From Bryum argenteum (taxonomy: Eukaryota; Streptophyta; Bryopsida; Bryales; Bryaceae), in NCBI GenBank assembly GCA_037043015.1, contig CM073330.1:1451263-1515262 (forward strand): a DNA stretch of 64,000 nucleotides, written 5' to 3'. Position 1 is the first letter of the stretch. Each line of letters begins with the position of its first letter. Of this stretch, positions 9,547-63,050 are shown in pieces. The notes beneath the pieces were generated by a model, which searched no databases, was not told the origin of the DNA, and was given only the letters and a program-made list of their open reading frames with translations. A program made the translations under genes and the position numbers.

Positions 9547-10186
9547 GTGCGCCCTAAGTAAGGAGCACGGCTTTCGCTCAGGGTCTTGTACAGCAGCTGC
9601 TTACGAGCCGCCCACGTTCGATGTGGGATATATCGGGACAGCCTTCATTAGCCACACGAGCCCCTGTTACCATAGTTGCTTCTGCTGATACTCTCCAGAG
9701 GCACTTACATTTCGAAAAGAGCTCGACATCAGTACTCGCAACGTTGTCCGCCTTATGACTTTTGTGAAGTTTCACATGCACTGCTCTTTACCCAACCTAG
9801 TGTTTGAGCCCATTGAGCTGACTAATATTTCAGAATATGATCACTCAAATTCGGCAATTCAGTCGGAGACACGTTCTTCAATCCATGACTCATCTTCATC
9901 TTCTTTTAGGGTTTCAGCCTGCTGAGATCATATCTTCTGAGTGTTCTTAACGAAGAATCTCGTGGAGAGCTTAATATTACCTCGAGGATGAATATAGCTG
10001 AAGCTGAAGATCCATCCGAATGAGGCCCTCCGCAGTGTCTGCATATCTGCAAATTAGTCTGGTGCAATTCTAGGTCATGCAGGATGGTACATGAGCGTTT
10101 GATTCTGACCGTCGACACATGAATTTTGAGAATGTAGGATTTACTGTGAATTCGACGGTTGTCATTTGATACTTCCGTCGGGTGAG
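9547..10186. other. Upstream region of the TilS-like gene
   Basis: No coding exon recognised. It presumably includes the promoter and 5' UTR of the gene starting at 10187. A short minus-strand open frame at 9578-9781 has no recognised similarity. Confidence 0.4.
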
Positions 10187-13611: not shown

Positions 13612-13989
13612 TTAAGTGTCAAAGTTTCATTTTAGTTACATAAAGATTTGTGAACATTATAATTTCAAGACACTTTTAATATAAAAATTCATCAATATCT
13701 CATTGGTGATAATTAAAGTATTGAGTATGAGTATGTTACATGAACCTCTATTATTGATTGGTTGACCCCAAATTCACTATTTTAAACTTAACTTCAAAGA
13801 TCACATGGTTGAAAGTTTGAAATCTTTGAATTTCCCTATGAATCTCTTTGATATTGTACTGTACACAAATCATTCAAGAAACCTCTGAATGACTCAAACA
13901 AGCTTAGGCATGTTTAAGGAACATGAAGGGACATTAAATAAACTTTTACTAGTACCCAAGAAAGAAAATAAAGAGAAAATTGTTTTCGG

Positions 13990-14144
13990 GGCAGCCCAAG
14001 AACCAACCCAAGATGGACGGCGCCGATCGAACCCAGAAACCCGAAACCCTAACCGTGGCGACAAGAGGGAGGAAGGTTTGCGGATTCACTCTTTTCCAGT
14101 GCAGCTTCGTCTCCGTGAGTGAGCAAGCTCTCGCATTGGCAGCG
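13990..14144 (+). promoter_or_regulatory. RPL4 proximal promoter / 5' UTR with telo-box and site II-like element
   Basis: A telo-box AAACCCTAA lies at 14044-14052, and an AGCCCA (reverse of TGGGCT, a site II core) at 13993-13998. This pairing is the known signature of plant translation-apparatus genes and supports 14145 as the start downstream. Confidence 0.7.
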
Positions 14145-35236: not shown

Positions 35237-35644
35237 TATAGTATATAGTATGTAATAGACACTTAAGGTGTATAGTATCACTGGCTATATTTTTGAATTA
35301 ATTAATTAACAAGATGGAGCTTGTGGGGGCTGCCTGTTTTGCCACATGGACCCCCTTGAGGGAGTGCCACGTGGACTTGAGGTGCACTTTAAAATTAGAA
35401 TGTCATTCCGTCCGGCCCTACCCCCAACCCTCTTATACTTTTTAAGGAGAGGAAGCGGCTCCCAACATTATGGGATAAATCCCTCCAAGATTCTCTCATA
35501 CCATCACCATGCCATACCATCACTATGACCGTGCATGCCCCTTCCCCTCCCTGAATCTCCCCCATGACCCCAGGGCTCCAGGCCTCTAATGAATTAATGC
35601 CACTCCAAGTTTCAATGGATACAGTAGATAGTTATGAAATGATT
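35237..35644. mobile_element. 408-bp insertion in block A, flanked by 16-bp direct repeats
   Basis: Absent from block B. The sequences TAGTTATAAAATGATT (35221-35236) and TAGTTATGAAATGATT (35629-35644) bracket it, like a target-site duplication of a retroposon. The interior (GGACCCCCTTGAGGGAGTGC and a C-rich stretch near 35530-35590) is not recognised. Confidence 0.7.
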
Positions 35645-36288
35645 CCCTTGGATCATTGATGACTTTGGTATTAGAATACTATGGAGGAAGCCATTAAACA
35701 TAGAGATCTTTAACTTTTTGAGTTGTATTATAGAGCAATTTTCTTTTTCATTTTTGTAAAATAAGGGAGAGAACAAAGAGTACTAGTGCAATGGACAATG
35801 GACAAATTTGGGTTGTATCCAAAGCTGGAACAAGTAAGAACACACTTATGTATGTGAAAAACTCATGTAGACCCAAGTAACAGTTTTTGTGGTTCATGTG
35901 ATAAGTAAGTGTGAAACACTACACATATTTATTTTATCAAATTGAGGATTCTTAAATTTCATAAAAAAAACCTTTTATCAAACCTATGTAATCATCTAGT
36001 ATAAAATAAGACATTTTCTATACTTGCGTTGACAAACGACCATCTAAACAAAATGTGCGGAAATTTCAAATACATTGTATGAATCACATGATCTTTATGT
36101 TAATCATATTCTTTGAACATCAAAAACTCAATGTACTCTTCGACAAGTTCAAGCATAATGCATTACACAACCACGTTCAGTCCAACTATGAAAGGTTCTT
36201 CAAAAGAACATAGTAATGGTCAACATGCACTATAAATAAATTTCTTTCTAAACCTAAGAACTCAAAAATCTCTCAATAACTTCAAAAT

Positions 36289-39200
36289 TCAGTGAGGTTT
36301 AAACCGACTTCGACGAGTTGGACCTCGTGATGGAGCCGGAGTTGCCGTTGGAGCCGGAGTTGCGGTTGGAGCACGAGCTCGAGATGGAGTTGGCGCTCGG
36401 TTTGGAGCCGGAGTTGCGGTTGGAGCCGGGGTTGCGGTTGGAGCACGAGCTTGAGCTGGAGTTGGCGCTCGGTTTGGAGCCGGAGTTGCAGTTGGAGCCG
36501 GAGTTGTGGTTGGAGCACGAGCTCGAGTTGGAATTGGACCTCGGGTTGGAGTTGGAACTTGGATTCGAGTATAAACTCGATCTCCACGAGAAACTCTGGC
36601 TCGAGTTGAAACTCGAGCCCGAGTTCGAGACAAAGTGAGGGATGGATCATGCTTAAGTAAAGTCAAAGTAATTGAGGAGATCATGGCTTCACCCATGACG
36701 CTACCCACTTCCAACTCCGTGTCCGTTGCCATTCCACTCCGCCTTCTGCATATCATTCACACAACTTAATATTTATTCTTAGTTTAGGTACTACATTATC
36801 ATAACATGAAACTCCGAATCTTTGATCATTTGTTGGCTCAGCATATTACACACACTCATCCTTTAACTAAAACAAACTATTTTCAATAACAAGTATCATT
36901 GAAATGTGCTGATTGATAAATCCACTTTTTGTTGTACTAATATATAAAATTCACTTTATAATAAACAACTTATTTATAGTGATACTCTAATACATACAAA
37001 GATACTCAAAGAATCTTTCCTAATTATATCATGTTTCTTGCTTTAATACTAATTTAGCTCATCAGTCCCAATATTAATCTTGAAAGGCAATATATTATGT
37101 ACAAAATGATTGAATAACCAAAACCTCTAACAACGTATACTTGCTATGTGAGGATGGTGATTCCTTAGACATGGATATGTATGTTGAGACATACATAGTA
37201 ACTTTGTAATGTATACTATACTTCATTGAGGAGACCAAATTTATGAACCAAGACGTATGTTCAAAACTGAAACGATTGTTACTTTCAAAAATAAATAAAT
37301 CGTAATATATATTTGTTTCATATCTTTTGTATTTATTTCAAACCCTTTATATCAATCAATTACATATAAGAGATGTTGAGAATGAATATAACTTACCTCC
37401 TTCCAACCCATGAAGGAATGGAGTCACTTGCTTCAGTTGGAGTAGAAACCACGGGAGGTGCGACTACGAGAGGAGCGGCCACGGGAGGTGCGACTAGGGG
37501 AGGAGCGGCCATGCCAGTTGTGATTATACAAGCTGCTAACCTGGAAGTCACCGATTCGACCAAGGCGATGGGAACTCCTGAAGAGGGAACTTGCTGAAAT
37601 TCGGAATCCTCCTCTTTGTCCTCGTTGGTAGCAAGGTTGACATTTCTTTTCTCCTCATCATCCTCTTTGAATATATCCTCCCCATCTTCTTCCACACCAT
37701 CATCTTCATGAGGAATGTCTTCACCACCGTCTTCCTCATCATCTACCTCATCATCGTCATGATGAATCTCTTCATCACCTTCTTCCTCACCATCTTCATT
37801 AATTATGTACTCGTCTTCCTCGTCGGTTTCCTCCTCATCCGCACTATCATATAAAAATGTGTCAAAAATTGAGAAATAAGGTCACTTACTTCAATATAAT
37901 GTATTACAAAATTCACATGCTCATTTTATACTATTAACCAAGAAACCTTTGCAATGCATGCATAAAAGGTTATCCAACTCCATCTACTATGTCTCTATTG
38001 AAAGAGACACTTTAAGATACTACGCAATCTTAGATTTTTGTTCGTCGGCCTCTCATGACATTTCATTAGTTGGGGAAAATATTCTCTTACTTGTCCTCAG
38101 CCTCTGAAGAGTTGGGAGCAGTCGAGGAGCTTGGGAGGTTGCCTAGAGCAGCTTCTTGAGCCAAAAACTTCTTCAAACCTAAAAAGTATCAATCGATACA
38201 AATCAATCGTGAGAAACAAGGATGTTGCTATACGGACTTGTTAGTGTTGAAGAGAAAACTAGTTAAACATTCAAATGTAAAGAAGTAATGTTTGGATATG
38301 TTGCTTCATAATTCTCCAACATAGTTTGTCCTATAAAATTGCATAAAGCGAAATTCTTCAGTAAGAGATGCCTACATTCAGACTGGTCGTATTTCTTGTA
38401 ATGAGCACGGCTCTCGCCTCGGAGCATGCGAAGGAATTCATCAACACACATGTTTGATCTCTGCAGTTACACCACACATGCGTTTGTCTCATTCTCAAGC
38501 ATTTGAAAAATCTAATTACTATGAATAATCATAACTAAAGGATTCACAATGCCAACTTGACCACATTCAAAAACCATCTCATCACATGAGGTTCTAATTT
38601 GCATGTTTTGACTTTGCCCTACACTCACCAAGTCCACATCCTCTGCATAATCGGCTCTGTCGAAGTTCAGTTGGATTTGCTTTTTCATGCCCGGCTCGTG
38701 CTCGATCTTGAGGAGGGCACGGTCTTGGCATCTAGAATTAGCATGTGATAGTACGATTTTAATTGCAAAGAGCTATTGAGCAAGTTGGAGCAAGCTTTGT
38801 AGCTCCAAGACACAAATAAAATTGACATCAAGATTGCCTAAACACATCTAAAAGCTTGAAATATATTACGCATTGTAAAAGGTGTACCTTGCCGCCAATC
38901 TTTCTGTCAAATGTGTGCCTACAAGGAACAATTCAATATCAAATCCACAATTAGACAATTGTAACATGTAGTGGAGTAATGTGACTTGTTATGATGTCAA
39001 AATCACAGTGAGGAGTCTCATTGCACAATATGTACTCAAATGGTGTATCCAAGCGTGCTACTACTATGTGTGAAGTGCATGCAAATATTAATAACAAACT
39101 ACAAACTTTGGAATGGTGATGATTGAGTACCTACGAATAGTCGTTTGCCTCTCACTTTAGGCTCTCTGCGTATACATATCACAACCAAGTGTAGATGTTA

Positions 39201-39497
39201 GTTTGTAATCTCAAAAATTTTACATTTTATAATACACCTCTAATTTTTTTTGTTAGGTTAGACATGTGTTTTTATAAGAGTTAAGTTAAAAGCATGACTC
39301 GTTATATATATTTATATGTATAACTTGGTAAAGAGATAATACATGCTTATAAGGAATTGAATTGGGAAAAGTAAATTTGTCCTTTACCTCACCCAAGCCC
39401 CCCACCGATTTGTCTTTATGTACAAGTGTACGTGGGTGTACACTTTTGAGGGACGTGTAGCCCTCTCGTTGTTGCGAGATGGAGGTTTTCGCGCCAT
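36289..39497 (-). CDS. AP2-derived protein A (single AP2/ANT-type repeat plus acidic and Pro/Arg-rich tail)
   Basis: Eight coding exons: 39388-39497, 39131-39165, 38888-38918, 38629-38731, 38376-38460, 38091-38178, 37397-37843 and 36289-36745. All introns are GT-AG; the joined frame is 1356 bases, 451 residues. Residues 20-82 resemble an AP2 domain: YTHVH, RWGAWVREPK, RLFVGTHLTERLAARCQDRA and a closing LNF. They are followed by DYAEDVDL...NMCVDEFLRMLRGES (86-110), which resembles the linker between the two repeats of AP2/ANT/WRI1-type factors. The second AP2 repeat is not seen. Residues 152-225 are strongly acidic, about 250-290 are Pro/Ala/Val repeats, and the last 150 hold repeats like RARAPTATPAPTATPAP. 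Double-AP2 proteins are plant transcription factors; DNA binding here is inferred, since the domain is divergent. Gene B is its close paralogue. Confidence 0.78.
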
Positions 39498-40159
39498 TTG
39501 TTTTTGTAGCTTTTGGAAGCTTCACTCCAATATTTTTCTGCACTGTTCCAATAACACATTTATTATTGTAAGAATGATCACTACATAGATTGTTTGGAAG
39601 TTATTGCATGATTTATTCTTATGCTTGACTACACAATCTAATAGATGTACTGTCCCATAGACTAAAATGAAAAGAAACATGTAAGATTTTCCTAAAAAGT
39701 TGCCTTAGTTTCTCTTGAAGGCTTGTGCTCATGACAGAGGGTTACACGAGGCGTATGATTTCTTAAGCACACCTAGTATCGGCCGCCTGGCGGGACAGGT
39801 AAAATTGTTGTCTACCTCAGCGAGTCTCTGACCAATGAGTAACTCTTTTGTTCTAGTTTTATATTTACACTAACCAAGTTTAAAAACATATGTAGAGCAC
39901 TTACCATCAAGTATCTTGAATAGATGAACAATTGCCGCTAATCACTATCTAAGAATGCAGACAAGGGAGACAACTATCTTTCACAAGCGGAAGCAGAGCT
40001 TTGCATGTATATCTTAAGAGGTAAGTCTTTCGATCAACTTATGTTCTCGCGCCACAAATAAGATTTGCAATACAGAGAGAATAGTCAATTTATTAAGTTA
40101 GTTCACGGTTTTTTCAGCTCCTTCGACAACAAATTATTCATCAACTATTCATTGCTCAA

Positions 40160-40550
40160 TACAAAGGCGGAAAATCAAAGGTGGATGCTCAAAGCAGGAT
40201 ACCTGAAAGCGCGGATGCTTGAATGCGATGCGCACAGTCAACCTGTGAAAGGCAATGAACAAAGACAGATGCGCAAAGGCGGTATGCAAAAGCGGATGCT
40301 CGAAGGCGGATTTGAAAAAGCTATACGCAGAAGCGCACGCTCGAAGGCGATGCACTAAGACAAATATGCAAAGGCAGAAGCTCAAAGGCGGATACCTGAA
40401 CCGGATGCTTGAAGGTGATGCGCAAAGTTGAGCGATCAAAGCCAATCAATGGATGCGCAAAGGCGACATGCAAAAGCAAATGCTCAAAGGCGGATGCCCA
40501 AACGCTCTACACAAAGCGCACGCTAGAAGGCGGGTATCCAAATGCAGAAA
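40160..40550. repeat. GC-rich degenerate minisatellite upstream of gene A
   Basis: Short units such as AAGGCGGATGCTCGAAGGCG and GATGCGCAAAGGCGG repeat with a period of 12-25 bp in otherwise AT-rich DNA, about 0.7-1.05 kb upstream of the gene A start. The counterpart in block B is 52340-52690. Open frames across it (Lys/Arg/Ala-rich) are by-products of the repeat. Confidence 0.85.
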
Positions 40551-41427
40551 TCAACTTATACATGACGAGGAAGGGAACATATATGAGAACGTGATAATAA
40601 TGTGTGGATGTTACCGCTCAAAGTTGCAGGAAATGTTGACTCTCTCTCGAGGCTACTCTTTCACAAATATAATAGTATCAATTGAGTGCACTTGAAAAAA
40701 ATGAAATGTTTAAATATTTTTTGACCCATTTGTGTATAATTTCCTAAGAAAATTGACAATAAGACCTTTCATGCCGCACAAGAATAAAATTCCTTAGATT
40801 TTATTTCCTCCACCATTCAAAATAAACGCTAAAAAATAATTCGGAGAATGCATCTTGTCGAATTTAAGATTGTAAGTTCAACATGTCCTTGCTTCATGTA
40901 CCTTTTCAGCTCCCTAGTTTTAGGTTGACTTTTTATTTTAGTTTGTCTCTTGAAAGGACTTTCACTGTTTTATTTTTAAGAAGTCACAATAAGTGCCTTG
41001 CCAAATCTCTCAAGAATCATGCAAATGCTAAAGAGAGTCAATTGACCCATCACCTCTGTCTCCCTTTCGTTTTCGGTTCCTTGCTCATATTTCACAATGG
41101 AAAGTTGGCCTTGTTAGTAGGGAGAATGATTGGGTGATAAAATTAATTTCATTGCAAGCGTGAAAAAATGAAAAGTTTTTGAGCTGAAGCGACAAGTTGT
41201 GATGAATCAAGTGCTTACTCCTTTCATCTTGTGGTTCTTAAAATTTTGTGATTGTTGGATCTACTGATGTTTTTCATTTTTGGTGGTGTTCTGCGTTTTG
41301 TAGGTCATGTAGAATTGTAAATTAGCTTGTGAGTTGTGTGACAAGGTATTCTTCACCAATCTTTCTTTCCTATGCGAAGAAGAGCAACAAGTCATAAAAA
41401 CTCAAGAAGAAAGAATGATCTACTTAC

Positions 41428-41549
41428 CTCACCCAAGCTCCCCATCGCTTCATGTTCTCGTAGAAATGCACATGCGTGTACAAGCTTGATTGACGCTTAG
41501 GGTTCTCGCACTTGCTGCGAGAACAAGAATTTGCACTTTTGGGAGCCAT
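41428..41549 (-). other. Orphan first exon of the AP2-derived family
   Basis: An ATG (41547-41549) opens 40 codons plus two bases and ends at a GTAAGT donor in the same phase as exon 1 of genes A and B. The product starts MAPKSANSCSRSKC and ends LYTHVHFYENMKRWGAWV, matching the AP2 start of A and B but with a different N-terminal leader. No exons 2-8 of its own follow; the next exons in this direction belong to gene A, about 2.3 kb away. It is either an alternative first exon of A or the remains of a further copy. Confidence 0.65.
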
Positions 41550-41785
41550 TGATACCTCGCAAAACAAATCGTGCAAAAACAAATTAACTACGCAAAAGAA
41601 TTGCAAGTCAACAACATATGCAATACTTAAGAAGCAGAAAAATGCTTGAGGATTCACAATCTTGTCTTCACAAGTATGGTTCTTGCCAATCTACCAAAAT
41701 TGAACAAGCCGCAATTATAGTGAGAAACTGAGAAACAAAATAAGTTTGTTCTACTTACAAATGAGAGCCAAACAAATTTCTCAAG

Positions 41786-41850
41786 TACCTGAGACTCTAA
41801 TATACGATTCCGGTAAATCTCAAGCATCGTACTCTGTTCAGCAAGGTTTC
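41786..41850 (-). pseudogene. MORC exon-19-like fossil
   Basis: The reverse strand reads EQSTMLEIYRNRILESQ then GT, against EQSLMFEIDRNRKLESQ then GT in exon 19 of the complete MORC gene. The other MORC exons were not found beside it. It is a decayed piece of a further MORC copy. Confidence 0.7.
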
Positions 41851-44800
41851 CGAAAACACTTAATTCTGAATTGAGCAGAAAACATCAGGGTTGTAACGTT
41901 TAGTATTTCATTCGAATACAGGATAGTCATGGTTTCCAAATGTCTCGAATGTTCCTCATCGCACTCAAGAATTTCATTTCTGTGTTCAAACAGAGAATTT
42001 GGTTCTCTAAATTTTAAATGATTACGTCCTAAAGTTAAGTCATATGCACTCTGTCAGCCAATTGAAGGTTAAAGATCTGAACTCGGAGCGATTGATTTAA
42101 TCTAATTATACTAGATTTCAGAATATCTCACTCTTTTCATCAATAATAGCTTTCTGGTCGTTTGAATGAGTTGATGTATTATAACTATCGTTCACTCTGA
42201 AGCGAAGAATTTCAGTTTTCAAGTTTCAAATTATACAATTCCATGTTCGATAGAAGACCTTCTTGATGTGCGAACGGCATGGATTCTGATCACTTCAACT
42301 GTTTTGTAACAAATTCTAGTCAGAACGTTTGTTCTCTTTCAGTCAATTAAAGGATTTGGTTTATGAACTTGTGCGATTCATTCAACTAGAATCTTGATTT
42401 ATGTGAGGGAATACATTTCTAGACGGTCGAAATCCATGTTGCTAATTCAAAGAATTTCAGTATCTGTCAATAACCCCAATTCCGTTAAAATGGCACTATG
42501 CCATGTGCCATTTTGTCACACTAGATCTTACATTTGTGCTCATATAAAATGCTATATTCTGTAATATCACAATTTTTTTCGTAACATCACTTCTTTATAT
42601 ACATTGTCACTATTTTTCCTTAATATCATCTTAAAATTCTGTTATATCACATGGTTTTTGAACTACAGTTCAGAAAGTTGAGGTGTGCCATTTTACCGGA
42701 ATAATGCCATTTTAACGGAATTGGGGTTCAATGTCGTACTTGGTTCCTGTCTGTTTTCTTCCAATCGCAAGAAGTCAGTCCGATTTAACAAAGTTAACTG
42801 AATTCTGTGACCAAACCATTTCAGTGAGGAAGTTGGTCATTGAACGCTTTGATGTTTCGGTTCTTTGTTGTTTATAAAACAATACATTCATTGTGATTCA
42901 TTTTCATATAAAGTACTTATGTTGTTGGTAGTTAAATAGGAAATGTTTGATAAAATCTTGAAATGTTATCGGTTAAGTCCTTAAACATATCATCTAGAAC
43001 ATGTCATTTATCATTAGTAACGTTGCAATCTTTTTGAACATGAATTTTCAACACTTAGTACCTCCTAGACGTTCTAGAAGTTACATTTTGACATCTTGGA
43101 TGAAATATAAACTGTGAGGAGATGTGAATTTTTTGTTCAATGTTCTTTTTCGATAAAATTCACACTTGGGGTGTCAAAATATATAAAGGATCTCGAGATC
43201 TTACATACTGTATGTGTATGCATTTAGTACACACGCGTTGACCATGTTTGTTTACGTGCATGTGGACTCAGCGTAGGGAATAATGTGTCAACAATTGGTG
43301 ATTGACTATTACATGTATTCTTGATAAAGTATGTATATACATGAACTTTGTGGTGACATTGTAGATATCAAAATTATGATTGTTTGAGTTATTTGTTGTT
43401 AGTGGCATTTAAGCATTTGTTAATCTAGTTGTTTGGGGTGAGTAGAAAGCGCTCAAACATGTACATGTAGTTCCTTTAAAAAGTGTAGTAAGATTTTTTT
43501 GGGAACGTGAAATAAACACACTCAACTATCAAGCATAGACATCTCTTGTTTTCATTACTCAAGCAAGTATTGTGGAAAGAGAGCAATATGGAGCTAGATG
43601 TAGCTCAACCCCTCTCAAATAATCGGTAATTCTTTACTACGAAACTTTAGTTTCTTAAATCTTTGAAGTGATTCACTCTTTTGAGTTGTGTGATAACAAG
43701 TCTTTTATCCCTTTTACTTTTCAATCAATCACTTGTTAACTTTTTTGTTTCAAGATAGTAGTGTTGATGCCCCTAATATTAGATTGTTTATAATTTGTAA
43801 GTATATTGTCACTACCTCAACAATGGCGTCTAATAAAAAAGCTATGGCAAATGATAGAGATGGTTAGAATTTACTTTTCTATCTATTGCATATCACAATA
43901 CAAAGAGGAAAACATGCTTTTAAATGCAGACGTATATTTGCAACATTCCTAGTATCACATTAGATTATACATTCACTTACTTGACATTAGTTGCACACTT
44001 GCACCAAAATACATGTGCTAAAGTCAAGGATCTTGCTCTAACAAGAAATCTACTCACACATCAATAGTGATGATATATTAATGTTTGCATATTGTGAATG
44101 ACATTGCTTTGTTTTTTATTAGTGCATGATTAGGCTATCATCTTTACTGTATCAATTTCTTGGTTTGCTTTTATGGTGTTCTTTTGCATGGAAATGTTTT
44201 TGGTTAAAGTTAACCCTTGTGATTGTAAGGGTTTAGGTTGTTTAGTGTGGGATAGTTGATAAACTGATTGTGTTTAAAAACTTCACTCTTGTTGAGTTTC
44301 TCCTTGATCAGTAGTAAGAGGCTTCACCCAATAACGTCCTTAGAGGTATTATGAGCCCTCAAGATAATTCAAGTACTTGTCTTGTGCATTCAAAGGGGTT
44401 TGAAACGTTATGGATTGTAGCATTCGAACATCATATAATGGTGACCATTTGTTTGCTCTCCAATATGATTTTAAGGCTTTAGTTCATTAAGTTGATTGAG
44501 TTTTGTCCAAAGTTTTGCTTATCTTGATGTCAAGTGTAGTTAATATCTAAATAAAAATTCTAGCAAGTAATTTGAAAATCACATCAAAAATATGAAGCCC
44601 AAAAAGTGTCATTTGGTACTTAAGAGGTTAAAAACCGAACAACCTACGTAGACTATGGTGAAGTGTAGTTTCACAAAAGCTTGTCATTACGTCAAGTGAG
44701 AAACTTACAAAACCTTCATTCAATATATTTGAGAAACAACTCATACATTTTGACTTGATTTAACATTGGATAATGGCTCACTTGTGCTATTATACTCAAT

Positions 44801-46639
44801 TTGTCAATTTCAAGCTCAAGGTGGCAACAATACTTTTTTTTTTTTGAACTTGTTCTTTCTACGGTTGTACTTTATGGAATAATATTCATTTTATTTTCTT
44901 GACTTGTAATGAGATGTGCGAGGTGAAGTCAATGAGAGGTAGAAGGTTAAATTCGAAGATTGAGGCATGAGTTTGCTTGCACATGCATTAGTAGTCAATG
45001 GTTGTAGCCACTTTCTCTACATCAACAATTCCGATCTTTTGCATACTTAGCCAAGATGTCACGTGGGAGTTTCTTCTACAAAGCGATCGCACATGAAAAT
45101 TGATACATTGGAGTTGTGCTAAGCCATAGAGGAGAGCGCGGTGGTTACTTTACATACATTTTGGACGGCTTTGGAGGTTGTCAATTACCAATCCCTATAG
45201 AAAAAATAGACAATAGTGTGACAAGATTGCTCGTTGAAACCTATTTAGAGGGCTATGAAGATTGCCTATAACAACTCACCTGCCTTGAGAAGGATTGGAT
45301 GATGAATTTCATTCAATTGATGGCTTACAAAGTACAACCACATGTCGTGTATTTTGTTTTAACATTGGTTTAGTAAGTCAAAATTTATGAGTTTATAGAC
45401 CTCTCATTACAAGACCTGTAAATGTTGAAGTAGGTGAAATGCATGATGTAACAATTCACTATAGTCTTTATAACCTTAATCCATGAAACTTGGTCTATTC
45501 TTCTCAAATGATCAATATTACTTACAAGCACCTAACTTATGATTCCACATTGAATCAATTAAATAGTTGGATTCAATACTAAACTAGGAAGATGTCGTAA
45601 GTTTGAAGGATTTTTGAAGAAATCCTAGATCTATGATAGAAAACCATCATGAATTTTGTTAAGATTTGAGGAGTTATAAGGAAACGCAATTATATTAAGC
45701 AATTCAAAGCCAAAGGATCTTGTTGATACTACAACATGTTGGTAAAGTATTTGCCCAAATCTTATAAGAAAAACTCCCTTTAAAGATACCAAGAGCGAGC
45801 TTCAATGTCTTTACTGTAAATATTCAAGGTAACTAAGTAGAGATTCTTAAATATAAGTTGGCAACATAAGATAAGTAAGCTCACTTCTCAACCACCGTTT
45901 AGCTTGTATGGTTCCACTGCCAAATTTTCCTAGCAAGCAAGCAAGCAACTATTGTTTTTTTATCATCATGTAAACACATTTAAATTTGTAGAACCGTGTT
46001 ATTGGAAGTACACTTCTAATACATGTATTAGAAGATAAGAATAACGAATAATGGTAAGACTAGTCAAGTTTAAAAAACTCAATTAGCTTCATGGAAAGGC
46101 TACAAATAGGACCAATGATTCATAGGTTGGAAATGGTTACTCAAATCTATTTGGGTGAAAGCATTACAAAAATATCCTATTGGAGTCTTGTGACCATGTT
46201 ACTATGGCTTTCACAATTTAATCCACACAGTTTTCTTTGATTTGCACGTAATATTGCTAACAACAACATATATTATCCTTCTTTAGCCCAAAAAATCTAT
46301 TCCAGTAGCAAGAATCATTTATATGAGCCATTTGATCCATCCATTGATCTATTCTTTATTCTAACAATAGATAAAATTCACTTAGCAATCGCCAACTTAT
46401 ACAAATCAATAAATTGATATACATCTTAATATAGTCATTATGATGTCTCACCAAGGATAGATGGTAGTATGAACAAAGTATATATAAGTATCTCATTTTC
46501 TATAATGTACAAAACCTCAATCATGTTCAACTCACGTTATTCTTCTGCAAAATGGGCATTGATGTGGGTTTCAAAAGTTACAAAAAATAGTGGGATCTTG
46601 ACCGTTTTTGAGTTTTGACCCTCCCATGTTCAGGTACAT
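41851..46639. other. AT-rich spacer with degenerate repeats
   Basis: No gene recognised. At about 42054-42450 two units of roughly 290 bp are loosely alike (TCAGCCAATTGAAGG... and TCAGTCAATTAAAGG...). A MITE sits at 42472-42728. From 42729 to 46639 only short open frames and no known domain are seen. Confidence 0.45.
42472..42728 (+). mobile_element. MITE of the AATTCCGTTAAAATGG family, copy 3
   Basis: 257 bp with near-perfect ends AACCCCAATTCCGTTAAAAT and ATTTTAACGGAATTGGGGTT, flanked by CAAT on both sides (42468-42471 and 42729-42732). It is very close in sequence to copy 1. Confidence 0.92.
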
Positions 46640-47165
46640 TAAAGTGCAATATTTCTAAACGGCTCTGCAAAAACATTGTCCTTTGATATTGTTGAACAAG
46701 AGAAACATTTGAGGGCTAATAACGACCAAGATATGTGATATGTGATATGAGGTAGGATTTACGTAGTAGTAGAGAGATCAAGTGATATTATGAAGGACAA
46801 GAGTGATGTTAGAAGACTGTGACACTTAAGAGACATAACAAAATTCGCCTCCAGAATGGCTTGGGGGCCATAATGACGCATCAAAATTTTTAGAGACTAT
46901 AACCATTTATTATAGGGTCCACATTACTTAAATTTGAATTCTATCGGTTAAGACACTTTGTTATTGCAATCCTTATTGCTTGAATAAAAATCTTGAATAA
47001 TTCAAGGTATAGTTTCATTAGAATCTAGTTAGAAAGTAAGTAAATACATAGGCTACGTCACTCAAGCCTTCCATCCACCGGTGCAACTTGGATTGCTTAC
47101 TTTGGAGTTTATACCCAAAAGTCAAATGCATGCCTAAATCACACCAACCCGGACGTAAAGAGTTA
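46640..47165 (-). pseudogene. Diverged duplicate of the 33.6-34.2 kb region, possible AP2-derived remnant
   Basis: It aligns with 33590-34170 in patches: AAACATTTGAGGG, GAGATCAAGTGATAT, TTTATACCCAA(A/G)AGTCAAA. At about 47050-47085 the reverse strand has a CGGTGG...GGCTTGAGTGA stretch resembling the end of exon 1 in genes A and B. It is too decayed to call a gene. Confidence 0.45.
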
Positions 47166-47419
47166 AAGAATACAAGAAGTAGACTTAATGTTGTGATATT
47201 AAAGATATATTGGGTAGGATTAAAACTCAAAGACATACACAACAATAAATATATTTTTCCAAAATCACAATATTGCCGTTGCCCATCCATCTCGCAATCC
47301 TTCATTTTTTGATAGAAAAAATCATGAATTTCCTACAAATCATGAATTTCCTAAAAATCATGATCTTTCATTGAATATCAAGATGTTTCAAGAAGCAATT
47401 TTTACTAGTGCCACCCCTC

Positions 47420-47826
47420 GTGCCACCCATTTGGCAACCCATCATTATCACGATCATGAAAATCAAGATATTCCATGATTATTTTAACATACAAAATGGA
47501 GGTCAAGGACCTCAATCTCTCAGCTCTTGCCTCTCATTCTTTGCTCTCTTACCCTTCCCTCTTTCTATTTACTGAAGTTATGATTAAAGTTACTAAATTT
47601 GTAAAAAAATGTGCAAAAAAATTATTTGAAATTCACTAAAAGTTACTGAGCTTGTATTCAAAATTACGGAAACTAGAGGTTGTGTACTTATATATATGAT
47701 TCTTGGGGTTGCCAAACGACCCTTCATATTTTTATTGTCATGATATATGAAGATCACAATAATGAGTAGAAAAGAAGGCCGTCAAAATATCATGAAATTT
47801 TATTATCAAATTGCCAAATGTAGCCT
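47420..47826. mobile_element. Possible hAT-type MITE
   Basis: CATTTGGCAA at 47428-47437 and its inverse TTGCCAAATG near 47811-47820 could be terminal repeats, and another inverse GGGTTGCCAAAC lies inside near 47708. Clear target duplications were not found. It abuts the left edge of block B. Confidence 0.35.
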
Positions 47827-48552
47827 AAGTGTATAAATCATGAAAACTACAAGCACTTTAAGAATTGATGCCATAGTTTTCTATTGTATTAATAAATGAT
47901 TCCCACGGTCATTGATATCATTGATAATACAATATTATGTAGCAAGTCATGAAAATATCGAGATCTTCACCTTTTAGAGTTGAGTTATAGATCAATTTGC
48001 TTTCTCATTTTTGCAAAATAAGGGAGAGAACAAAGAGTATTAGTGCAATGGACAATGGACAAATCTGGGAAGTATCCAGAGATGATGGAACAAGTAAGAA
48101 CACACTTAAATGTATGTGAAAACTCATGTAGACCTAAGTAACAACTTTTGTAGTTCATGTGATAAGTAAGTGTATAACACTACACAAAGTTTTATTATCG
48201 AATTCAAGATTCTTAAAGTTCATAAAAAAACCCTTTATGAAACCTATGTAATCATCTAAAATAAAATAAGACATTCTCTTTACTTACGCTGATGAATAAC
48301 CATCTAAAGAAAATGTGGGGAAAGTTTCAATACAATGTATGAATCACATGAACTTTATGTTAATCATACTCTTTGAACATCAAAAACTCAATTGATGTTC
48401 TCTTTGACAAGTTCAAGCATAATGCATTACACAACCACATTCAGTCCAACTATGAAAGGTTCTTGAAAATAACATAGTAATGGTGAACATGCACTATGAA
48501 TAAATTCCTTTCTAAATTCCAGAACTCAAAAATCTCTCAATAACTTCAAAAT

Positions 48553-49509
48553 TCAGTGAGGTTTAAACCGGCTTCGACGAGTTGGAGCTCGTGATGGAGC
48601 CGGAGTTGCGGTTGGAGTTGCCGTTGTTGCCGAAGGAGTTGCGGTTGGAGCATGAGCTCGAGATGGAGTTGGCGTTGGGTTTGGAGCTGGAGTTGCAGTT
48701 GGAGCCAAAGTTGCGGTTGGAGCACGAGCTCGAGTTGGAATTGGACCTCCGGTTGGAGTTGGAATTTGGATTCGAGTAGAAACTCGAACTCGACAAGAAA
48801 CTCGGGCTTGAGTTGAAACTCGAGCCGGAGTTCGAGACAAAGTTAGGGATGGATCATGCTTAAGTAAAGTCAAAGTAATTGAGGAGATCATGGCTTCACC
48901 CATGAAGCTACCCACTTCCAACTCCGTGTCCGTTGCCATTCCACTCCGCCTTCTGCATATCATTCACACAACTTAATATTTATTCTTAGTTTAGGTACTA
49001 CATTATCATAACATGAAACTCCAAATCTTTGGTCATTTGTTGGCTCATCATATCACACAGGCTCATCCTTTAACTAAAACAAACTATTTTCAATAACAAG
49101 TATCATTGAAATGTGCTAGTTGATAAATCCACTTTTTGTTGTACTAATATATAAAATTCACTTTATAATAAAAAACTTATTTATGGTCATACTCTAATAC
49201 ATACAAAGATACTCAAAGAATTTTTCTTAATTATATCATGTTTCTTGCTTTACTACTAATTTAGCTCCTCAGTTGCAATATTAAACTTGAGAGGCAATAA
49301 AATATGTACAAAATGATTGAATAACCAAAACCCCTAACAACGTATACTTGCTATGTACGTACAATGATTCTTTAGGCATAAATATGTATGTTGAGACATA
49401 CATAGCAAAGTTATAATAAATACTATACTTCATTGAGGAGACGAAATTTATGAACCAAGACGTATGTTCAAAAGTGAAACAATTATTACTTTCAAAAATA
49501 AATAAATCG

Positions 49510-49543
<34 letters not shown>

Positions 49544-51691
49544 TTTATTTCAAACCCTTTATATCAATCAATTACATATAAGAAATGTAGAGAATGAGTA
49601 GAACTTACCTCCTTCCAACCCATGAAGGAATGAAGTCACTTACTTCACTTGGAGTAGAAACCACGAGAGGTGCGACTACATGAGGTGCCACCACGGGGGG
49701 TGTAACCACTGGAGGTGCAACCATAGGAGGAGCGGCCTCGCGAGGTGCAACCATGTCAGTTGTAGTCACAAAAGCTGCTACCATGGGAGTCACCGATTCA
49801 TCCAAGGCAACAGGAGCTCTTGGAGAGGGAACTTGATGAAATTCGGAATCCTCTTCTTCGTCCTCGTCAGTAGCGATATCATCGTTGCTTTTCTCCTCAT
49901 CATCCTCTTTAAGTACATCCTCCCCATCTTCTTCTACACCATCATCTTCCTCATCATTTTCGTAAAGAATTTCTTCACCACCTTCTTCCTTACCATCGTC
50001 ATGAGGGATCTCTTCATCACCTTCTTCCTCACCATCTTCATTGAGTATGTACTCGTCTTCCTCGTCGGTTTCCTCCTCATCCGGACTACATGTAAAAATG
50101 TGTCAAAAATTGAGAAATAAGGTCACTTACTTGAATTCAATGTTTAAGAAAATTTTCACATGCTCCTTTAATACTATTAACCAAGAAACCTTTGCAACGC
50201 ATGAAAGGTTGTCCAGCCCCATCTACTATGTCTTTATTGAGAGAGACACTTAAAGATAGTGCATAGTCTTAGGTTTTTGTTAGTCGGCCTCTTATGACAT
50301 TTCATTAGTTTGGGAAATTATTCACTTACTTTTCCTCAGCATCTGAAGAATTAGGAGCAGCAGTCGAGGAGCTCGGGAGGTTGCCTAGAGCAGCTTCTTC
50401 AGCCAAAAACTTCTTCAAACCTAAAAAGTATAAATTGATGCAAATCAATCCTGAGAAACAAGGATGTTGCTATATTGACTTGTTAGTAATGAAGAGAAAA
50501 CTAGTTACACATACAAATGTAAAGGACTAATGTTTGGATATGTTGCTTGATAATACTCCAACATAGCTTATGCTATGAAATTGCATAAAGCAAAATATCT
50601 CAACAAGAAATGCTTACATTTAGATTGGTCGTATTTCTTGTAATGAGCACGACTCTCGCCTCGGAGCATGCGAAGGAATTCATCAACACACATGTTTGAT
50701 CTCTGCAGTTACACCACACATGCGTTTGTCTCAGTCTCAAGCATTTGAAAAATCTAATTACTATGGATAATTGTAACTAGATGATTCACAATGACAACTC
50801 GACCACATTCAAAAACCATCTCATCATATGAGGTTCTAATTTGCATGTTTTGACTTCGCCATACACTCACCAAGTCCTCATCCTCTGCATAATCGGCTCT
50901 GTCGAAGTTCAGGTGGATTTTCTTTTTCATGCCCGGCTCGTGCTCGATCTTGAGGAGGGCACGGTCTTGGCATCTAGAATAGCATGTGATAGTACGATTT
51001 TAATTGCAGAGAGCTATTGAGCAAGTTGGAGCAAGTTTTACAGCTCCAAAAGCCAGATAAAATTGATATCAAGATTGCCTAAACACATCTAAAAGCTTGA
51101 AAAAAAAATTCTCATTGTAAAAGGTGTACCTTGCCGCCAATCTTTCTGTCAAATGTGTGCCTACAAGAAAGAAGGTATCGAAGTCAAAATTAGACAATTG
51201 TAACATGTAGTGGAGTAATGTGATTTGTTATGATGTCAAAATCACAGTGAGGAGTCTCATTGCACAATATGTAGTCAAATGGTGTATCCAAGCGTTAAAC
51301 TTTGGAATGGGTGATGATTGAGTACCTACGAATAGTCGTTTGCCTCTCACTTTAGGCTCTCTGCATCACAACCAAGTGTAGATGTTAGTTCGTAATGTCA
51401 AAAATGTTACATTTCATGATACACCTCCAAAAAGTGTGAGTCTACTTGAATTTTGGTTTGAGTTTTGTAAGGTTAGACATGTGTTTTTATAAGAGTTAAG
51501 TTTAAAGCATGCCTCGTTTGATATATATATATTTATATAACTTGGTAAAGGAATTGAATTGGGAAAAGTAAATATGTTTTTTACCTCACCCAAGCCCCCC
51601 ACCGACCTGTCTTTTCATAGAAGTGTACGTGGGTATACACTTTTGAGGGGCGTGAAGCCCTCTCCTTGCGAGATGGAGGTTTTCGCGCCAT
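48553..51691 (-). CDS. AP2-derived protein B (paralogue of A)
   Basis: Eight coding exons at positions equivalent to gene A: 51585-51691, 51326-51360, 51130-51160, 50871-50973, 50618-50702, 50330-50420, 49609-50085 and 48553-48952. The joined frame is 1329 bases, 442 residues, with no internal stop. The leader is MARKPPSRKERASRPSK, then YTHVHFYEKTGRWGAWVRE, and exons 2-4 encode almost the same AP2-like core as gene A (LNFDRADYAED). Exons 2 to 5 are identical in length in A and B; exons 1, 6, 7 and 8 differ by whole codons (minus 1, plus 1, plus 10, minus 19). This pattern suggests both frames have been kept under constraint. The tail is again acidic, then Pro/Val/Ala-rich, then Arg/Pro/Ala/Thr-rich. 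Likely nuclear; DNA binding is inferred. Confidence 0.78.
49512..49540. repeat. AT dinucleotide microsatellite
   Basis: About 14 AT repeats in the last intron of gene B. Gene A has only four repeats at the same place. Confidence 0.9.
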
Positions 51692-52339
51692 TTGTTTTTG
51701 TAGTTGTTGGAAGCTTCACATGGATCTTTCTCTGCACTGTTCCAATAACTCAATTATTATAGTAAGAATGGTCACTACATAGATTACTTGAAATTTATAA
51801 CATAATTTCTTCTTAAACTACTCAATCTAAAAAATTTAGTGTCACAAAGAGTAAAAAGAAACACTTGAGATTCTCATAAAAAGTTGCCTTAATTTCTCTA
51901 GAAGGCTTGCACACATGAGGCTTACACGAGGCGTATCATTTTTTAAGCACACCTAGTATCCGCCGCCCCGGGCGGGACATGTAAATTTGTTGCCTTACTC
52001 AACGAGTCTCAGACCATTGACTGCCTCTTTTGTTCTAGTTTTTTATTTACACTAAAAGTTTAGAAACATATGTTGGGACTTACCATCAAGTATGCTGAAT
52101 AGATGAACAATTGTCGGTAATCACTACCTAAGAATGCACACAAGGAAGACAAATATCTTTCACAAGCGGAAGCGGAGCTTAGCATGTATATCTTTAACAA
52201 GTAACTCTTTCGATCAACTTATATTCTGGAGCCGCAAATAAGATTTGCAATACAGAGAAGATAGTCAATTTATTAAGTCAGTTCACGGATTCTTGAGCTC
52301 CTTCGACAACAAAGTGTTCATCAACTATTCATTGCTCAA

Positions 52340-52690
52340 TACAAAGGCGGATACCTGAAAGCGGATGCTCGAATGCGATGCGCACAGTCAAGCTGTCAAA
52401 GGCAATGAGCAAATATAGATGCGCAAAGGCGGTATGCAAAAGCGGATGCTCGAAGGCGGATGCGGAAAAGCTATACGCAAAAGCGCATGCTCGAAGGCGA
52501 TGCACTAAGGCAAAAATGCAAAGGCGAATACTTGAAAGCGGATGCTTGAAGGCGATGCGCAAAGTTGAGCGGTAAAAGGCAATGCGCAGAGACGGATGCG
52601 CAAAGGAGATATGCAAAAGCAAATGCTCAAAGGCGGATGCCCAAACGCTCTACGCAGAGCGCACACTAGAAGGCGGGTATGCAAACGCGG
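52340..52690. repeat. GC-rich degenerate minisatellite upstream of gene B
   Basis: The counterpart of 40160-40550 with the same GCGGATGCTCGAAGGCG-type units, slightly shorter, about 0.65-1.0 kb upstream of the gene B start. Confidence 0.85.
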
Positions 52691-53171
52691 AAATCAACTT
52701 ATACACGAAGGGGAAGGGAACATTTATGAGAACGTGATAAGAACGTGTCGATGTTACCGCTCAAAGTTGCAGGAAAATGTTGATTCTCTCCTGAGGCTAC
52801 CCTTTCACAAATATAATATTATCAATTAAAAATGAAATGTTTAAATCATTTTGACCCATTTGTGTACAATCTCCTAAGAAAACTGACTATAAGACCTTTC
52901 ATGCCTCAGGGAATAAAATTCCTTCGATTTTATGTCCTCCAACATTCAAAATAAACGCTAAAAACTAATTCGGACAATGCGTCCTGTGAAAATTAAGATT
53001 GTAAGTTCAACATGTCTTTGCTTCAAGTACCTTTTCGGCTCCCTAGTTTTACGTTGACTTTCTATTTTGGTTTGTCTGTTGAGAGGACTTTCATTGTTTT
53101 ATTTTTAAGAAGTCACAATAAGTGCCTTGCCAAATCTCTCAAGAATCATGCAAATGCTAAAGAGAGTCAAT

Positions 53172-58600: not shown

Positions 58601-61600
58601 CTTTATCAGCATCGGTATCAGGGCATTCACAAGTGAAGTAGCACGAAAGGGAGCACAGGAAATGTGAGATACCCGCAAAGAGTGACGATACGTGAGAAAA
58701 TGGCTCGAGTGTGGATATCGCTGAGCCATTGCAATCTTCTTCTCATCGCGATTTGCTCCTCTGATTTGTATATCCTATGTTCCTACGAATGATTAGATAC
58801 GCTTGCTAGTATGCAAAATATCAGAGCAGAAGACCACAATACAGTAAGATAATTGGATGATGGTCAGTATCTGACTTCGTCCGTGAAATCTTGCAGAATC
58901 AATCTGAATTGTGATGACAATGTTCAGGAGGAGCTGAGGAATATACTCACATGGGGGTCGGTTTCAAAGTCTAGCTCGAGCAAGCCTTGATCGTCCTCCC
59001 AGAGATTGTACAGAACAATCTTTGTACCATGGTCCTTCATTCCTACGAACTGCAGAAGTAGCAAAACTGGCATGATTGTCTAAAAACCATCCACTACATG
59101 ACTTCTTCATGTATTGGACTACATATATTGCATGAACATTGATGTCGATGTAACTACAAGACCAGCGTTTTCAACTTTGCACCTTGGAGCACATGCTATT
59201 ACACTTAGCATTGACCAAAAAGCAAACGACCAGGTTTGATGCAGCTAAGGTTTCCAGACGATAGATGTAGCCTCATGGCAAGGACTTGAGCATAATTGAG
59301 GGCCTTGCAGGGCTTGTAACAAACAAACCTGATCAAACAACTCGTCCTCGCTACTGAAAGGAGACCAGGTCTGGATTGTTTCCAGGTTGTGAGTCCAATC
59401 GTTCGTATTTGACCTCGTCAATTTCCAAACCTCCCCATCTCCAATTTCATAGTCGATCTGCACAACGTAAGGACCTCTGCTGAGAATACTCACCACGTGA
59501 ACAAATCCATCAACTTCTCATGGTTTTAGGTTCTGAAGCTTCACACCAACTTCTCAAAGAAAACTCGGTCCTCAACTCTTCGCCGAAAGTGATGCAATTA
59601 ACCTATTCCTTCGTCTAGTAATGGCTTCTAGTATGAATCCCAGACTGCCTGACAAGTTTCAAATTCTTTCATCTCTCGATAGGTACATGTAAAAAATGCA
59701 GAAACATCATCGACGGTACTCACCATTGGCACTACAATATCATCATGGCCAGTTTGCCGTAAAAAAGTGAAAGATAGTATGCCAATACTCTGAGTAGCTC
59801 TGTCAGAAAAAACAGGAATAAGCTCGGACATGTTAACAGAATAATAAAATTCTCCACCTAAAAGGGTTTCCGACCCACTTAAGTAGCATGCAGTGTGACA
59901 TGTCATGAGGAACAACTGAGTAATTCGAAAATTAGAATGTTGGAAGGAACAAGCATGTGTATGTATAAACTAAGAACAAATCTCAGGAATCGGCCTATGG
60001 TTCAAGGCAACGACCTACCTGTGGCCGTTAGAAGCACAAGAGCGAGAAAAGACAATCACATCAGCTCCAAGACGCATGGTACTTGTCTTGAAACCATTTC
60101 CATCTGCAAATGACATATTTGTCAATTCAAAACCTTTACCCTGTGTGAACCATCGTGCAGGTCGAATAAAGGTGATCGAGATACAATGCCAGCATAAACG
60201 AAGCCGACACAAGAATGATACTAATACAACCACCCCGGTAAAACTGTGCTATAATGATACAAGCGTCATTGTAATCAGTTCGCAGACGGATAGAAAAGGC
60301 AGAGTACTCCTAAATCATAGAGCTATGGGGTAGAAGTACGAACATTGACCGATAGTGTTGGCACTTTTGCTCTTTGCAGAGTATCCAAGGGACATGCATT
60401 GACGCATTCGATCGGGATTCATCCCACCGCCGTCGTCTGAAAGTCAAGAGCGAAAACGAACGTCGATGTCTCAGAAGTGAAACAAAAGTGAATCTTCAAA
60501 CATATATCACTCACCTAAAGACGGCACAATGAACCTGTTCACTCACTTGCTAGAAGAGGTGACAACCATGGCCACTGATTCGTACGGGAGAGCTAAGGTC
60601 CTTGACGGGAACAAGATGATACTCAGCAGCAAATAAAGAATCAGCACGAACTGCTTACCCTCGATTACAAGCATTGGAGAGCGGTTTCTAGGGTGCAAAG
60701 CAACATCCACATTCACAAATGTTGCACCGTTCGCGACCTAGATCCAATAGTAAACCGACTGTCAGTGAATTTGGTCACGCTGTGTACACATTCTAGAGCC
60801 GCACCTCACATCCTCAAAACGACAGCCTAAATGGTAGAAAAAACTTGTAGGGATCTAAACTGAAAGGGAGATAATTGTACCTCGTCTACGGCATTGTCCA
60901 CTAACTCGGCAACAGCTGAAGAACACCCACTCTTCAGTTAGTTACACACTCCAAACAGTTGAATTCTAGAAAGGGGCTCGCCCCTACTCAAGGTATTAAA
61001 TTTGATACACTATTCAAGCAACGAACACTTCATATGATAAACATCCGTCCATTGCGATCCCTAACAGCTAAACATGAAACCGCTGGCAAGTGACTAGGAT
61101 GTACCTCCAAGTGCCCATCTGTGACTGGTAGCATTAGCGTGTAGAAACTTAGGGTGAACCCTAACATGGTCAATACCTCCTGATTGCATACAACAGAAGC
61201 TGATCAGAAATTGTCGTTTCTCGTGCCTTAGCTCAAATACATTATCGATAGCACAATACTAGATGATACAAAATGTATCAAGATTAACTGGTCCGTTTAC
61301 GATACTTCAAATTGGAGATGGTACTGCTGCTCTCAGGTGACGCTCACCTGCCATTCAGCATACACTAAGTGTAACCTAAGCTAGAACTGTACCCGAGTTT
61401 AGTTCCATGCCCATCGTAGTTCGAGATAATTGAACCTACTCATATTCTCAAGAGAGCCACTCTCCACTCACTCTAAGAGACCAAAATTACTCGTGTGAAA
61501 GAATAAGAATGTCCACCTCCTTGTTGCATTGAAACAGCAGGCTGGCCTTCATAGTCTCCAGCTTTCCAGAACTGCTTGCAACTAGTGCGGGTTGAATCCT

Positions 61601-61913
61601 CTTCGATAGAGGGTTGAGGGAAAAAGGGCAGTGCAACCGGGGAGGAAGCAACCTTGACGTCATGATTCAGATCCTTTCCCGCGTCATTCTTTGAATCGTC
61701 ATACCGCAATGTGTTTAGTCGAAAATCGTCCACAGGCTCTAGCTTTTGCTTCTTCTGCAAAAACCCTGCACCCCATGGACTTTCCGAAGGACTCTCTCTT
61801 TTACCAAGTTGCTCCTCTCCCTCTCTGGGCTCATCACTGTTGGTACTGCTAGAACTAAGCTCATATACATCGTCTGTCTCTTCTTCCCTCTTCACTACCG
61901 CCGGTGCAGACAT
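55601..61913 (-). CDS. MORC-family GHKL ATPase, complete gene
   Basis: Twenty-one coding exons give 2454 bases, 817 residues: 61517-61913, 61105-61179, 60881-60915, 60659-60737, 60344-60436, 60019-60103, 59724-59799, 59329-59457, 58951-59049, 58673-58774, 58375-58536, 58138-58290, 57924-57975, 57476-57587, 57287-57366, 56841-57070, 56644-56709, 56352-56494, 56165-56240, 55874-56017 and 55601-55666. All borders are GT-AG and phases agree. ATPase motifs: ELVDNAVDE (161-169), DDGGGMNP (196-203) and GQYGNGFKTS (about 225-234). The S5-like part ends in GFNVYHKNRLIKPFW (about 484-498); a basic KKSKKK cluster follows near 563, and a coiled coil fills 715-817. Plant MORC dimers act in chromatin compaction, silencing and defence. 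The start of exon 12 is the least certain junction. A paralogue begins at 786. Confidence 0.93.
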
Positions 61914-63050
61914 TGCTGCCCCTTGTGTCACTGCGTTGAGCAAGAGGCGGACTTGGACATCGCTTGCTACAAAATCAACGTCCTTCGCTTACTTCAACTC
62001 CTCAAACCAATTCATAATGAACAAGACAAAACACCGTGTCGTTCCTCTCAAACTGTACTGCAATGTCCCCCGTCACATCTTTCTCTTGTTTCCACTTCAA
62101 ATGATGCTTGCAAGTTTGAAACCAAGAAGCAATACGTCCCGTCGAAAATCAGTCCTTCCAAACTTCAATCAGACTCTCCAATAAATAAGCCGCTTTGCGT
62201 TGCACCAGAATGGCCAGTATCCTGTTGTAGGCACCGGCTCCTAAGAACTACGACATATGAGCCTTCGTAACCGCAGAAGTTTTCCTGATCGCAAGCTTCA
62301 TAATCCTGGTATCCAAGTCTCTGCGTGACGAGCACTACGGCATTGCAAGCATTCCCTGTACGAGTTCGACGGCAGCTTACCAACACTCCTGAACACAGCT
62401 ACGACTATAGCATCCACGCATACTGGCACCCGACGGCCCAGGAGTCAAACGGAACACCACCGCTGACTTCCAGCTGCCAATTCAACAGTAATCTCCTCCT
62501 GTAACTACAACTGTAATTCTCACCAACCAAACGGCGCCGCTCACACCCTGAAACTTTATATCAAAGGAACCTTCCAGCTACTTCCTTTCTACTCATGCCA
62601 TCACATCCAGATGCTGCTACATTCCCCGATTAATCTACCAGCATTTTCTCTAATGATCCCGGATGCAAAAATAAGCTAGTTTTCGAAGCTCCTCTGCATG
62701 AGCTACATCACCAAAGCTAATCCCTACCACTTTGTTTCCCGAAGTAAAACTAAGTAATGTGCGAGAAGTTCCTAACCCTGGGAGTGGCGTAACTGCTACG
62801 ATACGGCACGAGAAAGCCCACGAAATGGCTCAAAGGATGCACCGCGACGGCGTGCGTGCGATCGTGATGTTTACTTGACACGCAATGGCGATGGCGGCTC
62901 TCGAAATCCTCGGCAACCGTCCGTGTTCCAAACGACCGAGAGTTTTGCCCCCAGCCGCGCGCGCTGAGGTTAGCGAACGATGAAAAGGAGGGAGACGATG
63001 TTCCCTGTGGCGTTCCCCATGCGTTCGTCAACGCTCCCTATCCACCACCC
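61914..63050 (-). promoter_or_regulatory. Upstream region of the complete MORC gene, conserved with the left copy
   Basis: Patchy similarity to 787-1915, best at 62784-62809 (26 identical bases, starting GTGGCGTAACTGCTACGATA). It probably contains promoter and 5' UTR. Confidence 0.6.

Follow-up and report, generated by a model that had tools for sequence, protein, structure and literature searches.

A pair of moss genes with one divergent AP2-like domain and charged tails, probably derived from AP2/ANT factors

AP2/ANT factors, among them AINTEGUMENTA and WRI1, have roles in land-plant development and in stem cells. Families with a single AP2 domain are also known, namely ERF, DREB, RAV and Soloist. 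A moss-specific AP2 clade of another type, the ERF clade with PpERF24, has been described as well (PMC9520294). Here we analysed a window of 64,000 nucleotides (nt) from the moss Bryum argenteum (NCBI GenBank assembly GCA_037043015.1, contig CM073330.1, positions 1,451,263 to 1,515,262 of the forward strand), which holds two related genes, A and B, at 36289-51691. Like AP2/ANT genes, A and B encode an AP2-like repeat followed by a linker helix, and they have a phase-1 intron in the Gly codon after VYL, read as LFV in the pair. Unlike AP2/ANT genes, they have no detected second repeat and no 9-nt microexon, they carry acidic and Arg-rich tails, and the DNA-contact positions of the first strand are replaced in their family. 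The PpERF24 clade resembles the pair in being a moss-only AP2 clade with odd AP2-domain signatures. By the description in PMC9520294, however, it belongs to the ERF family and has WLG in almost all members, whereas A and B read LFVG, have eight exons and carry an AP2/ANT-like linker. The Soloist genes of the same source likewise have one AP2 domain and are diverged both in sequence and in gene structure, a likeness drawn from its description only.

Both genes lie on the minus strand and are open from ATG to stop over eight exons, encoding 451 (A) and 442 (B) amino acids. All 14 introns across the two genes are GT-AG, with phases 2,1,2,0,1,2,2 in each. In A, exon 1 (39388-39497, 110 nt, ATG at 39497, donor gtaaag) encodes a basic N-terminus and the initial part of the AP2-like domain. 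Exon 2 (39131-39165, 35 nt) encodes REPKVRGKRLFV/G, where the slash marks the 3' intron at the AP2/ANT VYL/G site in phase 1. The start of the AP2 helix falls in exon 3 (38888-38918, 31 nt), while exon 4 (38629-38731, 103 nt) holds the remaining helix, LNF and the start of the linker, and exon 5 (38376-38460, 85 nt) the linker helix CVDEFLRMLRGES. Exon 6 (38091-38178, 88 nt) is followed by exon 7 (37397-37843, 447 nt), with an acidic stretch, a Pro/Ala/Val stretch and WVGRR at its end, and by exon 8 (36289-36745, 457 nt including the stop), which opens with the RRRSGMATDTELEV head and continues in Arg/Ala/Pro/Thr repeats. The exons of B are 51585-51691 (107 nt, ATG at 51691), 51326-51360 (35 nt), 51130-51160 (31 nt), 50871-50973 (103 nt), 50618-50702 (85 nt), 50330-50420 (91 nt), 49609-50085 (477 nt, acidic) and 48553-48952 (400 nt including the stop). 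The first-pass annotation had described two eight-exon genes without internal stops, equal in the lengths of exons 2-5 and differing elsewhere by whole codons. Rebuilding the models returned its coordinates exactly and the same pattern, with a difference of 0 nt in exons 2-5 and of 3, 3, 30 and 57 nt in exons 1, 6, 7 and 8.

We searched the genome (258.8 Mb in 25 contigs) with the domain of A; all counts of matches and loci from this search are lower bounds. At least 60 matches, exon by exon, fell on members of the family and on other AP2 genes. Spliced alignment resolved at least 16 family loci, nine of which lie on C10 at 1.49-1.71 Mb (A, B and L031-L037) and seven on C3 at 13.11-16.33 Mb (L038-L044). 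Seven loci (A, B, L032, L033, L035, L037 and L042) share the intron phases and have exons 2-5 of 35/31/103/85 nt; in L035 an automatic model had split exon 5. As L032, L033, L037 and L042 show these lengths and phases at only 44-62% identity to A, the exon structure is more than chance, and chance open frames were ruled out as the source of the two gene models.

The loci differ in their state of preservation. Complete genes with eight exons and the intron phases of A and B are present at L033, L035 and L037 (307, 306 and 310 amino acids), so that five of the 16 loci hold complete genes. L032 lacks a start codon, and its frame ends early, in exon 8. Two further loci were partly read by eye: L043 keeps the phases of A and B with exons 2-5 of 41/31/103/76 nt, and in L044 intron 3 is missing and exon 2 contains an in-frame TGA. 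In L039-L041 the ATG is absent at the matching place and the models require implausible joins, while clear similarity in L031, L034 and L036 is confined to exons 4 and 5. Since five of the 16 loci are complete and several others are partial or broken, this looks like a multi-copy gene family of the birth-and-death type. The partial or broken loci L031, L034, L036 and L039-L041 were excluded from the comparative sets, which comprised six of the 16 loci for the alignment, eight for the profile and the tree, and eight for the substitution table (L038 over 73 codons).

The order of protein parts is also common to the two main groups of the family. In the second group (L032, L033, L035 and L037), the AP2-like domain, linker, acidic exon 7 and exon 8 follow each other as in A and B; exon 7 ends in WAGRR and exon 8 opens with RRRSGMA.NDEMEV. 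The acidic stretch and the basic end are thus shared, and L042 has an acidic open frame at the matching position. On the other hand, L033, L035 and L037 have a short, Arg-rich C-terminal end (for example STRSRRRTGRRAC in L037), and the tails of A and B are longer Arg/Ala/Pro/Thr repeats in 18-nt steps. These RAPT/PAP repeats were observed in A, B and, in worn form, L038. The net charge of A is +11 over residues 1-136, -48 over residues 137-292, which start in exon 6, and +20 over residues 339-451; the matching parts of B carry +12, -53 and +14. The charged tail proposed from the first reading, an acidic stretch followed by Pro/Ala/Val and Arg/Ala/Pro/Thr repeats, was borne out. The conserved block WxGRR/RRRSGMA..E.EV, with the slash at the exon junction, looks like a putative nuclear localisation signal.

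The homology of the domain to AP2 is, on the evidence of sequence comparison, close to certain. When the family profile was searched against 177,635 distinct PDB sequences, the top four matches were AP2 domains (best expectation value, E, 4e-4). Searched as a single sequence, the first 150 amino acids of A had WRI1 (7wq5) as top PDB match with a whole-sequence E of 1.7e-4; the best stretch of this match spans AP2 and linker and has E 0.12 when taken alone. With hhalign, the family scored 65.6 against a profile of first repeats with linker that pooled canonical AP2/ANT with four diverged AP2 sequences; 60 column shuffles reached at most 20.4. An AP2 hidden Markov model (HMM) built from the moss's own genome gave 25.9 bits for A and 29.3 bits for B, and 2000 shuffles of residues 1-150 of A gave at most 6.7. 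This HMM found a single AP2 domain in each of the full-length products of A, B, L032, L033, L035 and L037, and a second AP2 repeat in none of the six, which bears out the first reading of a single divergent repeat. When the genome was searched with L042 at E up to 5, 20 of the 22 non-family matches overlapped loci with a Pfam AP2 match and the other two fell within a run of AP2 genes on C7. One weak genome match (C2:14750464, E 2.4) lies outside known AP2 loci.

The Pfam results weigh against this homology. Full-length A and B had no AP2 match in Pfam at E up to 10, and none of the six members scanned reached the PF00847 cut-off of 33.3 bits, the trimmed domain of A scoring 13.5 bits. With trimmed domains, two of the six members matched Pfam AP2 at E up to 10 (best E 0.052), and the unrelated NAD_binding_4 did slightly better (three of six members, best E 0.036). 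The claim that the spliced products match an AP2 profile thus failed at the Pfam cut-off and held with the own-genome HMM, with hhalign and in the PDB profile search.

Within the AP2 superfamily, descent of this one-repeat family from AP2/ANT is, in our judgement, probable. The linker alone scored 21.0 against canonical AP2/ANT linkers, above the best of 50 shuffles (14.1), in agreement with the earlier suggestion that the AP2/ANT-type linker is kept. Against the one RAV linker it scored 13.9, a value equalled by one of 50 shuffles. Moreover, the intron after exon 2 of A follows the first base of the Gly codon in LFV/G, in phase 1, and in the canonical AP2/ANT genes L050, L051 and L052 the intron 3' of the 9-nt VYL microexon interrupts the same Gly in the same phase. 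A conserved VYL exon has been described for WRI1 (PMC3724841). The case for an AP2/ANT origin is made by the linker and this one shared intron, as the whole-region scores do not separate the branches and the AP2 part alone fits ERF better.

Several results speak against an AP2/ANT origin and in part for descent from a single-AP2 gene, either of the RAV type with loss of B3 or of the ERF type. Taken alone, the AP2 part had a score of 40.6 with ERF but of only 28.3 with the first repeats of canonical AP2/ANT, although the latter carry an insertion that may depress their score. Over the whole region the scores were alike, with 52.1 for RAV (L049), 52.0 for diverged AP2 genes, 50.5 for L053/L054 and 46.7 for canonical AP2/ANT; ERF domains, which have no linker, gave 42.5. 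The RAV profile is a single sequence. RAV and the family also share a single AP2 domain, the helix that follows it and the WGA letters of strand 2. The other introns of A and B differ from those of AP2/ANT genes, and the 5' border of the VYL microexon has no match, exon 2 being 35 nt long with the 9-nt microexon absent. A rough hand estimate puts the chance of one such coincidence among the introns at a few in a hundred. The 10-residue insertion in repeat 1 described for the ANT lineage (PMC6361745) is absent from the family rows of the alignment. In the tree, the family forms one clade (100/99), and its sister L054 is weakly placed (62/75) on long branches. Nevertheless, we consider a RAV or ERF origin unlikely: the RAV linker does not rise above shuffles while the AP2/ANT linker does (0 of 50), and the VYL/G intron occurs neither in L049, where AP2 through B3 form one open frame, nor in eight ERF domains, each in a single frame. 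Nor did Pfam find a B3 domain in full-length A or B at E up to 10.

The state of the DNA-binding surface bears on what the proteins may do. The DNA-contact residues of AtERF96 are R16, R19, R21, R31, R39, W23 and W41 (PMC7593309). We placed them on the family alignment by eye, guided by the YRG and WLG patterns; given the divergence of the alignment, the placement may be off by one residue. So placed, R16, R19, R21 and W23 are replaced in seven of the eight family rows (rows with letters there), and L044 has Lys at R19. By contrast, R31 is retained in seven of eight rows and R39 in six, and the position of W41 is F or Y in all eight. In the six aligned members, W32, G33, W35, V36, R37, E38, P39, G43, R45 and G49 are invariant. 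Because the contact positions of the first strand are replaced, a changed or weak DNA binding of the family domain is likely; because the W41 position is aromatic in all eight rows and ten residues are invariant in six members, the sheet surface seems to be constrained still.

The probable history starts from an AP2/ANT-type ancestor, of which the first repeat and the linker helix were kept and the second repeat was lost. The family then gained the acidic region, the WxGRR/RRRSGMA..E.EV block and the Arg-rich tail, with A and B as recent direct copies within a multi-copy family. In such a protein, the AP2-like sheet and linker might sit on DNA or on a partner protein, with an altered or weakened choice of sequence, and the acidic region might activate or recruit. 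A role as nuclear transcription regulators is the likeliest for the products, though one on which belief and doubt are evenly balanced. An AP2 domain that has decayed and lost its DNA binding would also be compatible with AP2/ANT descent; the proteins would then be partners or competitors of other AP2 proteins, or acidic/basic chromatin proteins. The replaced first-strand contacts and the strong charges of A (net -48, then +20 in the tail) fit this alternative, but the aromatic residue at W41 and the invariant W32-G49 residues do not point that way. RAV, which binds DNA, also differs in the first strand. We regard loss of DNA binding as possible and lean away from it.

Genes A and B lie in two direct duplication units at 35637-41042 and 47894-53171, the first of which (a 5.4-kb stretch) is 85% identical to the second. 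Exons 2-5 of the pair are 96.5-100% identical with zero indels, and the introns are 86.8-93.5% identical with 58 gap columns in intron 1, 49 in intron 2 and 0-7 in introns 3-7. Exon 7, however, is 82.8% identical and so more diverged than the introns. The contrast between exons and introns within the pair is a weaker argument than the recurrence of the structure in diverged loci. Common to both units are repeats upstream of the genes, at 40176-40532 and 52338-52675, built of units like GCATCCGCCTTTG. Also upstream of gene A, on the minus strand, lies an isolated first exon of the second-group type (MAPKSANSC...WGAWVR; 41428-41549, coordinates counted by eye), which is 83-86% identical to the first exons of that group and has a good donor (gtaagt) in the matching phase 2. 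It may be a leftover, or may serve gene A as an alternative first exon.

We then asked how the proteins have changed, using the ratio of nonsynonymous to synonymous substitution rates (dN/dS). Between A and B, the ratio was 0.52 for the whole protein (bootstrap 0.36-0.74), 0.38 for the acidic part (0.25-0.58), 0.74 for the repeat tail (0.35-1.9) and 1.09 for the exon 8 head (0.22 to above 9). For AP2 plus linker it was 0.65 with a wide range (0.21-2.6), and for the AP2 part alone 1.10, with too few changes to tell. A ratio below 1 between the two genes, as anticipated in the first-pass annotation, was therefore found for the whole protein. Across the two main groups, A against L032, L033, L035 and L037 (117 codons) gave dN 0.23 and dS 1.4-1.7, which is near saturation, and ratios of 0.14-0.16; for B against the same loci the ratios were 0.11-0.13. 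A against L038 gave 0.48 over 73 codons. dS against L042 was saturated, and the second-group copies were too close to one another for dN/dS. Between the two main groups, the protein has been under purifying selection.

Could A and B still be dying duplicates, that is, pseudogenes or silent copies open by chance? The broken relatives would suit such a fate: an in-frame stop interrupts exon 2 of L044, the frame of L032 has no ATG and is cut short in exon 8, and L039-L041 have no matching ATG and implausible joins. So would the higher ratios of the AP2 part and of AP2 plus linker between A and B, and the divergence of exon 7 beyond that of the introns. This explanation is nevertheless quite improbable in view of the whole-protein ratio and its bootstrap range, the indel-free exons 2-5 and the complete genes at A, B, L033, L035 and L037.

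Overall, the family of A and B is a variant of a known AP2 kind, a real but modest novelty. For a family combining one AP2 domain with acidic and Arg-rich parts, no description was found in the literature by title or abstract start, in a search outside which most subscription papers fell. It is plausible that the pair represents a lineage-specific class, known here from one genome. A fuller statement, which we put forward tentatively and with somewhat more doubt than confidence, would be that these nuclear proteins form a moss-specific, AP2-derived class, expanded into arrays on two chromosomes, with the AP2 fold re-tooled (for a new DNA choice or for none) and joined to acidic and Arg-rich arms; Pfam-based annotation would miss the class, which may be overlooked in mosses at large. 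A worn one-repeat AP2 family, set in arrays and lying under the Pfam cut-off, shows how an AP2/ANT factor can become something else, and suggests that a class may be missing from moss AP2 gene counts. The intron common to A/B and AP2/ANT genes offers an ancestry marker for other mosses. Should the domain still bind DNA, it would reveal which strands of the AP2 sheet tolerate rebuilding.

Other AP2-like loci came up in the genome. L057 (C9:10333500-10338500) and L058 (C10:15189000-15193500) have open frames of 1416 and 828 amino acids that run off the stretches. These encode two diverged AP2-like repeats plus a linker, and their far end resembles, by eye, an F-box-associated beta-propeller. Neither matched any Pfam family at E up to 0.01; a mobile-element origin of the AP2 part, for which these two loci were examined, gained no support from them. 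L047, L048 and L056 (in a run at C2:15.46-15.48 Mb) and L055 (C9:9.17 Mb) are diverged AP2 genes in which the loop ahead of LNF is longer. Two repeats stand in one open frame in L047, L055 and L056, and L048 has the first repeat and the linker. In the WRI1-like L045 (C4:7592700-7593700), one open frame runs from the first repeat across the linker and through most of the second, without the VYL microexon introns, and L045 may be a retro-copy. None of the 74 AP2 matches listed for the genome (a lower bound) lies on contig C1, which may, as a guess, be a gene-poor sex chromosome and, if contigs are ordered by length, is the longest. The genome also yielded one LEAFY gene, as two adjacent exon matches, with Asp in MRDYVHCYALH and Cys in GAWCQACY; these are the type II residues of mosses at positions 312 and 345, by which the host is probably a bryopsid moss, and an initial reading as a liverwort was set aside. 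LEAFY types are defined by sites 312, 345 and 387, Bryopsida members being type II and one liverwort having a type II gene as well (PMC6588583).

In the window itself, a stretch at 295-855 is repeated at 61435-61971 with 80% identity and codes for TCKQFWKAGDYEG-like letters, which resemble the start of MORC ATPases; the repeat had no Pfam match at E up to 0.01. The window also holds a TilS-like tRNA lysidine synthase gene at 10130-11479 (PF01171, 136 bits) and a ribosomal protein L4 gene at 13953-14918 (PF00573, 114 bits).

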